Assembly (NCBI GenBank): GCA_017941635.1
Contig: JAGAVZ010000253.1
Location: 1 to 64,000 of the forward strand
Length of the DNA stretch: 64,000 bases
From: Cellulosilyticum sp.
GTDB taxonomy: Bacteria; Bacillota; Clostridia; Lachnospirales; Cellulosilyticaceae
Direction: 5' to 3'
In this document: piece after piece, positions 34,889 to 44,973 of the stretch
Position numbering within the stretch: the stretch's first letter is position 1
How the letters are laid out: every line of letters starts with the position of its first letter
Position numbers and translations under genes: made by a program
The notes under the pieces: model-generated
The model's database searches: none
What the model saw: the letters and a program-made list of their open reading frames with translations, nothing else
What the model was told of the DNA's origin: nothing

Positions 34889-34967
34889 AATATATAAAAA
34901 ATTGGGTGTTCTTTTTACATAAGGCTTGATAGAAAAGGGGTAGGAGGAAATTGACAAAGGAAATTTC

Positions 34968-34996
34968 TTGACACTACCTATATTATAAAATACTAT
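34968..34996 (+). promoter_or_regulatory. Promoter of corA
   Basis: TTGACA at 34968-34973, 17-bp spacer, TACTAT at 34991-34996 (4 of 6). It implies a 5' leader of about 240 nt. Confidence 0.6.
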
Positions 34997-35021
34997 TATA
35001 AAGGGTTAGTATGAAAACCTA

Positions 35022-35163
35022 AAATTTGACAGATAATAACAAAGGAGAGTGAGTATACAGTGGACGTCGGACCGAGTTGTAGGCGTTATAAGTTTCAATT
35101 GAATAAAAAGAATACTCACTTTGATTTAATGCAAAGGTAAGTTTTTTGTGCTGTCAAAAATTT
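35022..35163 (+). ncRNA. Structured corA leader, candidate riboswitch of unknown class
   Basis: Nested inverted repeats: outer arms AAATTTGACAG (35022-35032) with CTGTCAAAAATTT (35151-35163, two extra A); inner P1-like stem AGTGAGTAT (35048-35056) with ATACTCACT (35112-35120), enclosing 55 nt. The 3' arm of P1 overlaps the 5' arm of a terminator-like hairpin (35114-35142, one mismatch and one bulge) ending in TTTTTT. The two folds exclude one another, the layout of a transcriptional riboswitch. I compared from memory with M-box, NiCo, Mn2+ and fluoride types and saw no match. No fold energy was computed. Confidence 0.5.
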
Positions 35164-35244
35164 GAGCATAGTATGATACAAGTTTTGATTCACATCAAGA
35201 TACACTTGCCTTAAATGAGGGTGAGGGGTGGAGGATGTGAAGAC

Positions 35245-36180
35245 ATGAAACAAATTTTTAAAACATTTGATACAGGTTTTGAAAAAATAGACACATTTGA
35301 GGATGGTGCATGGATTAACTTAATTAATCCAACTCCACAAGAGATTAGTGAGATTTCGGCTCAGTTTGATATTGAGACAAATCATATCTTATCCGCACTG
35401 GATGAAGAAGAACGTGCACGTATTGAAGTGGATGATAACTGTACAGTTATTATCGTGGACGTTCCAATCAAAGAGGCAGATGAAGGTATCGGTGAATATG
35501 TTACAATTCCAATGACGATTATCCTTGGAGATAAGTTCATTATCACAACATGCCTTAAAAACATTAAGCTCCTCGAAGATTTCTCTTCTGGAAAAGTGAA
35601 GGGATTCTTTACCTATAAGAAAACAAGATTTATTTTACAATTACTATATAAAAATGCTTCTTACTATCTTCAATACTTAAGACAGATTGACCGCTTAAGT
35701 CACAAGAATGAGCAAGAACTTCAAAAGTCTCTTAAAAATAAAGAGCTTATTGAGCTTCTGGACTTAGAGAAGAGTTTGGTTTACTTTACAACTTCTCTTC
35801 GTGCCAATGAAATCGTTCTTGAGAAGATGATGAGAATGGAAACAATCAAACAGTATCCTGAAGATCAAGATTTACTTGAGGATGTTATCATTGAAAATAA
35901 ACAGGCCATCGAGATGGCGAATATATATAGCAATATCTTAAGTGGAACAAGAGATGCTTTTGCTTCGGTTATTTCCAACAACTTAAATATTGTGATGAAG
36001 ACATTAACATCAATTACAATCGTAATGTCTATTCCAACAATGATTGCGAGTTTCTTTGGAATGAATGTAAATGGTATTCCTTTCGGAAACATGCCACATG
36101 CTTTTATGTTTATTGTGATTTTATCATTCATCTTATCAGCAGTATTAGCAATCTTTATGATTAAGAAAAAATTGTTTTAA
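35245..36180 (+). CDS. corA: CorA-family divalent metal transporter
   Basis: 311 residues from ATG 35245, reached from a GGTGGAGG site; the ATG 10 codons earlier has no upstream site. The long N-terminal cytoplasmic funnel is followed by two C-terminal helices, the first ending in the selectivity motif GMN (FFGMNVNGIPFG, about residues 269-280), then a short charged tail (MIKKKLF). It forms a pentameric channel for Mg2+, and in some branches Co2+, Ni2+ or Zn2+. The upstream leader suggests control by an RNA signal, possibly the metal itself. Monocistronic. Confidence 0.92.
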   Translation: MKQIFKTFDTGFEKIDTFEDGAWINLINPTPQEISEISAQFDIETNHILSALDEEERARIEVDDNCTVIIVDVPIKEADEGIGEYVTIPMTIILGDKFIITTCLKNIKLLEDFSSGKVKGFFTYKKTRFILQLLYKNASYYLQYLRQIDRLSHKNEQELQKSLKNKELIELLDLEKSLVYFTTSLRANEIVLEKMMRMETIKQYPEDQDLLEDVIIENKQAIEMANIYSNILSGTRDAFASVISNNLNIVMKTLTSITIVMSIPTMIASFFGMNVNGIPFGNMPHAFMFIVILSFILSAVLAIFMIKKKLF

Positions 36181-36353: not shown

Positions 36354-37660
36354 ATGACAAATAATAAGAATAAATTAGCGTATAAAGGCTACCTGAAGAC
36401 TCTAGTCCTTAATATGTTAGGGGAATCAACAACTCCTTTAATAAAAATACTACAGTTAGCATTATTGGGAAGGTATACCACAGTATTTTCTATGATTGCA
36501 CTGGGGCTTGCATTTACTTTATTTAATACAATGGATTGGATTTTGGGTATTTTAAAAGTTAGTGTTACAGAAGAAAGTATAAAAGCCAGTAGACAAAATA
36601 ATGAGAAGGCACAATCTACAGTGTTATTGCAACACATATTACTAGTTTGGATTGTAGGGATATTTTTAATATTGTTCAAAGAGCAGATTTGGCAGAGCAT
36701 TGAATGGATTTATAGAGTGGAAACACCTATTATGAGACAAACTAAACTTTTCTATGATTATACAATTTGGGGTGTTTTTATGTACTTAACCAACAATATG
36801 ATTATAGGTTGGTTATCTGGGGTAGGAGATATAAAATATGCAACCTTATTAGAGGCAGGTAGGAATGGTACTACAATTATTGTGTCTGCTATATTAGTAG
36901 TACGTGGACAAGGAATAGCTGGGATTGCAAATGCTTTTATATATGGACAAATTGTTTGCTTAATAGCAGGTGTTGGTATTCTATTAATTAAAAAAAGATT
37001 TATATTTAAATATATTACTAAGCAATCAACATGGGATTTAAAAAGAATAGCTTTGGACATTTATAAAAAGATGGATAATATTTATAATGCTATTTTTGTA
37101 GTGCTTGTTATGAATATCTTTATGAGCATAAGTTGTCAGTTTGGAAATATCATTTTGGCAGCCAATCTTATTTTGATGCAAGTAAAAGATATTATGGGCC
37201 ATCTTTTTGAGGCTATATTTAAGACAGTCAGAAGTTATAAGTTTCAGGCAAGAAGACAAGGGGATACAGAGAATTATATAGGTTAACATTAATTAATGTA
37301 ATGTATGTTACTATAGGCAGTGTGATGTTTTATAGCTTGGCGCGATATTATGTTGCGGATTGGATTATTCCTTTTGACTTAGTTAAAGATGCTTTTCTTA
37401 GATATGATGGTTGGCTTTTAATTTATCCTATTTTAGGTGGATGGGGATTAAGTGCCTATGGTTTATATGCTGATTCTGTAAAAAAGAAAATTGCAATATG
37501 GACCTGCAGTATAGGATTAGTAGTATTTGGGGTTATGTATTTGATATGTGTACCAATATTAGGTAATCATGGGATGTGGCTATCTTATATATTGTTTTAT
37601 TTTGTGCACAGTGTTGGATTATTAGTATATGAAGGATTTTTATATAATCAGGAAAATTAG
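36354..37660 (+). pseudogene. MATE-family efflux transporter, frameshifted
   Basis: Two frames together encode a MATE (multidrug/Na+ or H+ antiporter) protein similar along its length to the intact paralogue at 37950-39251. The first frame stops at 37284-37286 after QARRQGDTENYIG. Reading the next frame just before that gives YRLTLINVMYVTIGSVMFYSLA, which lines up with the intact copy's HKMTLQTVMYLSIGLVIFYAMA. A single one- or two-base indel near 37275 explains it. The C-terminal frame's apparent start (37301) has no ribosome site. It is either a fresh pseudogene or a sequencing error. Confidence 0.82.
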
Positions 37661-37949: not shown

Positions 37950-39251
37950 ATGAATACAAGCGAGCGTTTAACTTATAAGAAATATTTAGCACAAGTATGG
38001 CCCAATATGTTAGCTCATTTAGCAACTCCTTTATTAAAGGTGATTGAGATTGCAGTTATAGGAAGATTTTTAAATCCTATTTATATGGCAAGTTTAGGAA
38101 TTTCTATTACAGTGCTTACAACAATAGATTGGCTAATAAGTTTTTTTAGAGCAGGGGTTATTGCAGAGAGTGGTAGTGCTTATCAAAAAGAAAATAAAAA
38201 GTTGCAAGCAAGTGTACTAGCAGAGTATATTGCAATTGTTGTGATGTTCATGGGCATATTAATTCTTACAAAAGAATTTTTATGGGATTTAATAATGCTG
38301 ATATATAGACCTGATGTAGAGGTAGGAATTAAAGCAAAGCAATTTTGGGATATAGCAATTTGGGGATTACCAATTAGCTTAATTAACTATATGATTATGG
38401 GATGGTTTTTTGGACGGGATAAGGCAAAAAATGCTGTCTTCTTAGAGCTTGGAACAACCATAATCAATATCCTATTGTGTTTATTATTTATAAATCGGAT
38501 TGTATTCACTGATATTGCAGTGATTTATGTTATAACACAAATCATAATTTTAGTTATAGGAATAGGTTTACTTTTTAAAGAAGATAGAGAAATTCTTGGT
38601 TATATGAAAGATTTATCACTATGGGTGCCTAGAAATATACCAGAAAGAATCAAAAGTCAAATAGGTGTTATTCAAAGAGCGACGTGTAGCGTTATCGTAA
38701 ACAATATAGTGATTATAACAGGAAGCTATATGGGCACCAAAGTATTAGCTGCTAACTTTATTATCATGCAATTAAAGGACTTAATAGCCTATCTATTTGA
38801 GGGCATTAGTACAACCATTAGAGGGATGGTTGCAAGCGGCAAGTTTAATGAAGATAAATCAAACTTAAAAGAAGTTCACAAAATGACATTACAGACAGTT
38901 ATGTATCTAAGTATAGGTCTTGTTATTTTTTATGCAATGGCACGTAGAGGGATCATAAACCACTTAATCAACATAGAGGAAATTCAAAAGACATTAATAA
39001 GCTTTGATGGATGGTTGGTACTGTATCCAATTATTGCTGGATGGGGATTGAGTGCATATGGTTTATATGTTGGACTAACACAGGAGAAATTCATTGCAAA
39101 TAGTACAGTTATAGGATTTATAGTATTTCTAATTACTTATATCATTGCCGTGCGAGGACTAGGCAATCATGGTGTATGGTTCGCATTTGTAATGTTTTAT
39201 TTGGTACGTAGTATCATGCTATTAGGATATGAAGGCTATTTATACGAGTAA
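37950..39251 (+). CDS. MATE-family efflux transporter
   Basis: 433 residues, twelve membrane helices, intact. It is a polyspecific-type MATE protein, with the N-terminal LATPLLKVIEIAVIGRFLNP (the family's first-helix pattern) and a repeat at the middle of the protein. It shares extensive sequence with the frameshifted copy just upstream, for example FDGWLVLYPIIAGWGLSAYGLY, so the two arose by tandem duplication. The substrate is unknown; sodium- or proton-driven export of organic cations is usual. It may compensate for the broken copy. A terminator follows. Confidence 0.85.
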   Translation: MNTSERLTYKKYLAQVWPNMLAHLATPLLKVIEIAVIGRFLNPIYMASLGISITVLTTIDWLISFFRAGVIAESGSAYQKENKKLQASVLAEYIAIVVMFMGILILTKEFLWDLIMLIYRPDVEVGIKAKQFWDIAIWGLPISLINYMIMGWFFGRDKAKNAVFLELGTTIINILLCLLFINRIVFTDIAVIYVITQIIILVIGIGLLFKEDREILGYMKDLSLWVPRNIPERIKSQIGVIQRATCSVIVNNIVIITGSYMGTKVLAANFIIMQLKDLIAYLFEGISTTIRGMVASGKFNEDKSNLKEVHKMTLQTVMYLSIGLVIFYAMARRGIINHLINIEEIQKTLISFDGWLVLYPIIAGWGLSAYGLYVGLTQEKFIANSTVIGFIVFLITYIIAVRGLGNHGVWFAFVMFYLVRSIMLLGYEGYLYE

Positions 39252-44022: not shown

Positions 44023-44345
44023 TAAAAAAACTCCTTCATCCATCAACAGGACGAAAGAGCGTTATATTGCAATCTTCCGCGGTACCACCTGACTTGCCTA
44101 AAATAAGGCCACTCGTTATACCTTTCCTTGCGGTAACGGTAGGAAACCGTCAGAGCCTACATTATATGTGGTGCATGCTATACTTGTGCAAGCCATTCAT
44201 ACAAAAGTAATAGTAAGCCTTTCACAAGATTGATAAAAGCATGATGCATATAAATTCAGTCTGCCACTCCAAGGGGATATTTCCTAATTTCTATCATATG
44301 GGCTCTCACCAACCCCACTCGCTTAAATGAATCAAAAGAAGTACT
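44023..44345 (-). promoter_or_regulatory. T-box leader of ileS
   Basis: On the minus strand the hallmark T-box AGGTGGTACCGCGG lies at 44091-44078, inside AGGTGGTACCGCGGAAGATT. It is followed by the antiterminator/terminator region (CTCTTTCGTCC then GGATGAAGGAG and a T run) at about 44063-44028. The 5' stem I begins near 44340; the loop reads AAATATCCCC, so the specifier is probably ATC (isoleucine, plus-strand 44276-44278). Uncharged tRNA-Ile should stabilise the antiterminator and allow ileS expression. The assignment is strong and matches the gene. Confidence 0.93.
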
Positions 44346-44973
44346 TTTCCTTTTCATTGTGTTTAGTAACATATAAAAATTAATAGTAATATTATAAATT
44401 TAAAAATTGGGATTGTAAAGGTAAAACAACAAATTCAAATGACTATTTATTGTAAATTTCATAAAATGTTATCTTTTTTGATTCCTGCCAAAGAAATAAC
44501 AGTAATAATGGCCCTATATGCAACTCTTCGCGCAATCAATCTTAATACAATTATATAAATCAAAGTAATGAATCATAATATATCTGTTTAAATTAAGAGA
44601 TAAATGGACATAAAAGAGTAGGTTGAAAATTTTGCTGACTTACTCTTTTTTTGTGATTTTTAGTGAAACAAGTGACGAATTATATTTAAACAAATGTTAT
44701 AAAAGGAGGGTATAGATAAAATAATTTATGAAATAAAAGAAATTTATAAATAAATTATTGGATAATTTTGGTTAACTATAAATGAAGAATGCTATTTGGG
44801 CATATACTGTATTAAGAAAATGAAGACTGTATTAGCTAAATTTAAAAATTTATTGAAAAAGTGTGTAAAAAAAATCAATAAAAATAAACAAAATTGTAAC
44901 CTTATGATGTATACTAAAGTTAAGAATTATAGTACAAACCCTATAGTAAAGTCGAAGATAGGAGATTGGGACA
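44346..44973. other. Gene-poor divergent region before pncB
   Basis: A hairpin with a T run at 44613-44652 lies in the middle with no gene reading into it. I see no RNA gene or convincing ORF; a 70-codon frame at 44796-45008 overlaps pncB and has no ribosome site. AAGATAGGAG precedes the pncB start. Confidence 0.6.
44613..44652 (+). terminator. Orphan terminator-like hairpin
   Basis: AAAGAGTAGGT and ACTTACTCTTT pair with one G-U and are followed by TTTT. No gene on the plus strand ends nearby, so it may terminate an unseen small RNA or be a remnant. Confidence 0.5.

Follow-up and report, generated by a model that had tools for sequence, protein, structure and literature searches.

Ribosome-based sensing of Mg2+ by leader peptides with an acidic and proline-containing start is known from enteric bacteria, and the M-box (ykoK, RF00380) is a Mg2+ riboswitch controlling Mg2+ transporters. 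The MgtL peptide of E. coli begins MEPDP, and Glu2 and Asp4 of its EPDP stretch destabilize the ribosome (PMC11282234), as do Asp2 and Glu5 in MgtQ (PMC8092293). Upstream of corA in E. coli lies another such peptide, CorL (MDTPSRYWLTILSSRINS, with the TTG start read as M), whose translation responds to Mg2+ and varies inversely with corA expression (PMC11552253). The corA motif in the literature is restricted to Gammaproteobacteria (PMC6429828). In mycobacteria, an M-box is followed by a conserved small uORF2 (Rv1805A) with an invariant proline (PMC12810186). The clostridial corA leader described here carries features of the MgtL/CorL type, namely a Shine–Dalgarno (SD)-preceded short ORF before a Mg2+ transporter gene and an acidic and proline-containing N-terminus.

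This leader (nt. 34960–35245) lies on the forward strand of the 64,000-nt stretch of DNA that was analyzed (the window), as do the other features below unless stated. It is flanked on one side by a DinB-type polymerase gene (Pfam IMS) with a trailing short ORF, and on the other by corA (nt. 35245–36180), encoding a Mg2+/Co2+ transporter (Pfam PF01544, E 1.7e-60). By homology, corA starts at the conserved ATG at nt. 35245, and not at the upstream ATG at nt. 35215; its SD sequence is GGAGG (nt. 35230–35234). Searching 96 related genomes at the DNA level identified the leader in seven genomes beyond the window's own, whose nearest named relatives are Cellulosilyticum, with corA directly downstream in all seven (76–91% protein identity). 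An earlier sequence-only reading of this DNA had placed a TTGACA-17-TACTAT promoter at nt. 34968–34996, ahead of a corA leader, and both are borne out: the seven relatives keep leader and promoter, and both hexamers are retained in 8/8 aligned leaders, the −35 unchanged and the −10 reading TACTAT or TAGTAT.

Within the leader we noted a uORF, MDVGPSCRRYKFQLNKKNTHFDLMQR (nt. 35060–35140), which runs from a GTG start at nt. 35060 to a TAA stop at nt. 35138–35140 and is preceded by the SD sequence AAGGAG (within AAAGGAG; nt. 35042–35047). The homologous uORFs have a purine-rich SD at the matching place, in front of a run, TGGACGTCGGACCGAGTTRTAGGCG, that all eight aligned leaders share; the base before TGG alternates between A and G among these leaders, giving an ATG or a GTG start. 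The uORFs of this family comprise 22–26 codons and start with MDVGPS[YC]R, or with MEAEPSCRW in the case of L008. Owing to small deletions, the family homologues read their C-terminal halves in different frames, so that conservation of the peptide is limited to approximately the first nine residues. In the 64-kb window, a single one of the 414 SD-preceded short ORFs matches M[DE]..?P, the one at corA, and two other matches to the combined SD and uORF pattern in a genome-wide search sit inside longer open frames. The sequence upstream of the second corA of the same genome (L093) lacks such a uORF as judged by eye. On sequence grounds, the uORF at nt. 35060–35140 is probably translated.

A conserved leader peptide upstream of corA in many Clostridia, whose fixed part is residues 1–5 (M-[DE]-x-[GDVS]-P), is well supported by comparison across corA loci. 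In the best 80 corA loci from a prokaryote genome collection (75 bacterial and 5 archaeal), a uORF with this start precedes corA in 42, counting uORFs that are SD-preceded, 8–60 codons long, match M[DE]..?P, and lie within 350 nt of corA. The same count came to 0.59 ± 0.84 (maximum 3) in 100 dinucleotide shuffles, where related leaders are treated as independent, and to one on the antisense strand. About half of the corA loci are without the uORF, and it was found in none of the five Methanosarcinaceae corA loci. In a separate class-wide sample, the uORF was present in 13 of 29 loci, two of which duplicate the first set, leaving 11 of 27 new loci. The proline stands at residue 5 in 47/47 members (the 42, the window, and four family leaders), though the search pattern also permitted residue 4. 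The strict conservation of the first two bases of codons 2 and 5 is not independent evidence, since the set was selected by those residues; the synonymous share of codon differences, also affected to some extent by this selection on residues 2 and 5, was 0.23 in frame versus 0.11 and 0.10 out of frame. The member uORFs encode 11 to 48 a.a. with variable C-terminal sequence, and most of the peptides contain a single acidic residue and a single proline. On the CorA tree, presence of the uORF is clustered, yet ~15 changes are needed, a count that takes in three uORFs where serine replaces the proline. Separately, two loci (L076 and L081) display variant uORFs, MGDGPYSSSLK and MKPGPGMRTNVLLQKII, ~93 and 117 nt before corA, respectively, which keep proline 5 and have no acidic residue 2.

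The uORF is found repeatedly in the company of other Mg2+-related elements. An M-box, likewise an element of Mg2+-transporter control though an RNA aptamer and not a peptide, closely precedes the uORF in twelve related loci (L014, L020, L022, L031, L048, L050, L063, L130, L133, L134, L135, and L153); it is absent from the window's leader by Rfam search. A thirteenth M-box locus, L140, has a near-miss peptide (MECDTGNS), and four further M-box loci are without the uORF (L033, L138, L141, and L143). Acidic and proline-containing uORFs also occur before mgtE, which represents another Mg2+ transporter family, in L102, L104, and L107 among 28 mgtE leaders. This set had been meant as a control; it holds two MDAGP uORFs, both from one genus, and one uORF in the window's family, MDSPKSS with a TTG start, in a locus that has an M-box too.

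Compared with the known systems, the clostridial uORF resembles MgtL of mgtA (E. coli, Salmonella) in being a short uORF before a Mg2+ importer, in its acidic residue 2 and proline 5, and in its competing leader structures, which are predicted in the clostridial case. However, it belongs to another phylum and precedes another transporter family, and its peptide, usually with one acidic residue before one proline, is weaker than EPDP; control is predicted at the corA ribosome binding site (RBS), whereas Rho termination has been shown for MgtL. CorL (ysgD) of E. coli and Salmonella shares the position before corA and an acidic and proline-containing start (MDTPSRY...), but its proline is residue 4 as opposed to residue 5 and its leader architecture is different. 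The mycobacterial uORF2 is also a small proline-bearing uORF behind an M-box; however, its proline is at position 7, the downstream genes are pe20/ppe31, and the peptide is said to be mycobacteria-specific (PMC12810186). The likeness to MgtL and CorL extends over about five residues, and convergence is as likely as common descent.

In the literature searched, which lay mostly outside the subscription journals, we found no earlier report of a clostridial corA leader peptide. We lean slightly towards the wider view that M-[DE]-x-[GDVS]-P marks a widespread leader-peptide family of Clostridia, often behind an M-box, which would have arisen apart from enteric MgtL and CorL and in which the ribosome would serve as Mg2+ sensor for corA (occasionally mgtE). 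If true, a leader with both M-box and uORF would sense Mg2+ two times over, each time in a different way. Were such a mechanism widespread in Clostridia, at another transporter and in tandem with an RNA that senses Mg2+, it would point to early-abort peptides as a general means of gauging Mg2+, and the family offers dozens of natural variants for testing which residues matter.

The corA SD is enclosed by a predicted hairpin (nt. 35187–35241; −20.4 kcal/mol for the stretch at nt. 35187–35247), which is kept with changing sequence across the family; five of the eight members fold better here than all 200 shuffles. The 5′ arm of this hairpin includes a predicted anti-SD arm, ACTTGCCTT (nt. 35204–35212), able to pair with a predicted anti-anti-SD segment, AAGGTAAGT (nt. 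35134–35142), that overlaps the uORF stop codon. In the window, this pairing of AAGGUAAGU with ACUUGCCUU is predicted to comprise nine pairs, one of them G-U. For non-overlapping segments, the duplex of uORF tail and anti-SD arm gave z values of −1.3 to −3.9 across the eight family leaders, with p below 0.025 in five, related leaders again counting as independent. For the other leaders with a uORF, 38% had z < −2 versus 6% of leaders without one, in a comparison between groups with unequal segment lengths. The competition predicted to be conserved in the family is that in which the uORF end and the corA RBS vie for one anti-SD arm.

The predicted openness of the corA SD in the family was 0.51 with a ribosome on the early codons versus 0.26 with one at the stop codon, and higher in 6/8 leaders (p 0.039), a result that hinges on the definition of the SD, given that placing it by pairing to the 16S rRNA anti-SD gave this value while an earlier definition gave p 0.25. 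The effect of ribosome position was absent in the leaders of other clades (p 0.85). The free family RNA is predicted to be mostly closed, and the model set out below consequently requires ribosomes that begin translation and subsequently stall or abort, and not the mere absence of ribosomes. In keeping with this, forcing the window's leader into the ON fold costs 6.5 kcal/mol relative to the minimum of the free RNA (−48.4 vs. −54.9 kcal/mol).

We propose that the uORF may act as a translated leader controlling corA. At low Mg2+, ribosomes would stall or drop off at the acidic and proline-containing start through intrinsic ribosome destabilization, as with MgtL, and the uncovered uORF tail would capture the anti-SD arm, leaving the corA RBS free (ON). 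With enough Mg2+, ribosomes would reach the stop codon and cover the tail, such that the corA RBS would be sequestered (OFF). We assign a probability of roughly two in three to this reading, i.e., leader-peptide control of corA through early-translation Mg2+ sensing and RBS competition. Mg2+ would most likely be sensed through failure of translation at an early stage, where both the sensing of Mg2+ and the direction of the response are drawn from the resemblance to MgtL and CorL and from the company of M-boxes.

Possibly, though with clearly less weight, the same leader peptide and Mg2+ signal act mainly through transcription, by Rho-dependent or intrinsic termination, and not through RBS sequestration; this is a sub-variant of the best explanation and is compatible with the RBS model. 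Rho is encoded in the genome and is used by E. coli corA and mgtA (PMC11552253), and a T-run follows a hairpin in the window, but this intrinsic terminator is weak and not conserved, whereas members across the family retain both the RBS hairpin and its competitor. The hairpin in question (nt. 35114–35147), taken as a terminator in the sequence-only reading, has a fold of only −4.3 kcal/mol, is unlisted by a terminator scan, and is without its T-run in several homologues.

It is unlikely that the leader peptide stalls on a signal other than Mg2+ (e.g., translation stress, an antibiotic, or proline supply) with corA simply as the target. While the leader-peptide evidence fits any translation-coupled input, and a weak stall at the early codons would serve any of these, the association of the uORF is with Mg2+ transporters and with M-boxes in the same leaders, and a single proline codon makes a poor proline sensor.

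The original proposal for this leader, a new metal or metabolite riboswitch in which a P1-closed aptamer competes with a transcription terminator, now appears improbable. Its statement that the leader matches no known riboswitch class stands, as a search of Rfam 15 gave zero leader matches at gathering cut-offs and the best hits of a lax search (E 1.9 and 2.2) were to unrelated families. The arms of P1, AGTGAGTAT (nt. 35048–35056, between the uORF SD and start codon) and ATACTCACT (nt. 35112–35120, inside the uORF), do pair in the predicted fold, and most homologues retain pairing of the inner 8 bp; the 3′ arm, farther down the uORF, is conserved as nucleotides although the frame here shifts between homologues. 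However, covariation of P1 in the family leaders was not above the level of shuffles, and relatives outside the family retain the start of the peptide, not this P1 or terminator. The core is conserved and a metal transporter gene adjoins it, but the G-rich segment claimed as an aptamer core, GGACGTCGGACCGAGTTG, corresponds to codons 1–9 of the short ORF, with start-codon alternation and in-frame synonymous change. An aptamer is therefore not supported, as what was taken for its core encodes the N-terminus of the conserved leader peptide. Taken whole, the 261-nt leader is predicted to be only marginally more stable than its shuffles (z −1.72, with 14/200 shuffles as good), and the claimed on/off competition between P1 and the weak terminator is not conserved. 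What survives of the proposal is the idea of a leader upstream of corA that is regulated and has competing structures, and not that of a ligand-binding aptamer; as a warning, what looks like a conserved 'aptamer core' may be a short ORF in the leader. As a side observation, three Peptococcaceae leaders (L027, L036, and L057) have a long, P1-like stem proximal to the SD (GTGAGTCAG/CTGACTCAC), shortly followed by a T-run in L036 and L057.

Least probable of all is a functional micro-protein, such as a CorA partner, lying in the leader by chance: the ORF is conserved, has a good SD, and adjoins corA, but conservation stops after five to nine residues, the peptides differ in length and C-terminal sequence, and the C-terminal frame shifts even inside the family.

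Elsewhere in the window, the sole Rfam match is a T-box leader (RF00230, 105.6 bits) on the minus strand at nt. 44044–44366. Downstream of corA, inspection of the translations by eye revealed two consecutive ORFs (310 and 119 a.a.; nt. 36354–37660) that jointly resemble an intact 433-a.a. membrane protein at nt. 37950–39251, as if one copy had been broken by a frameshift or an assembly error.
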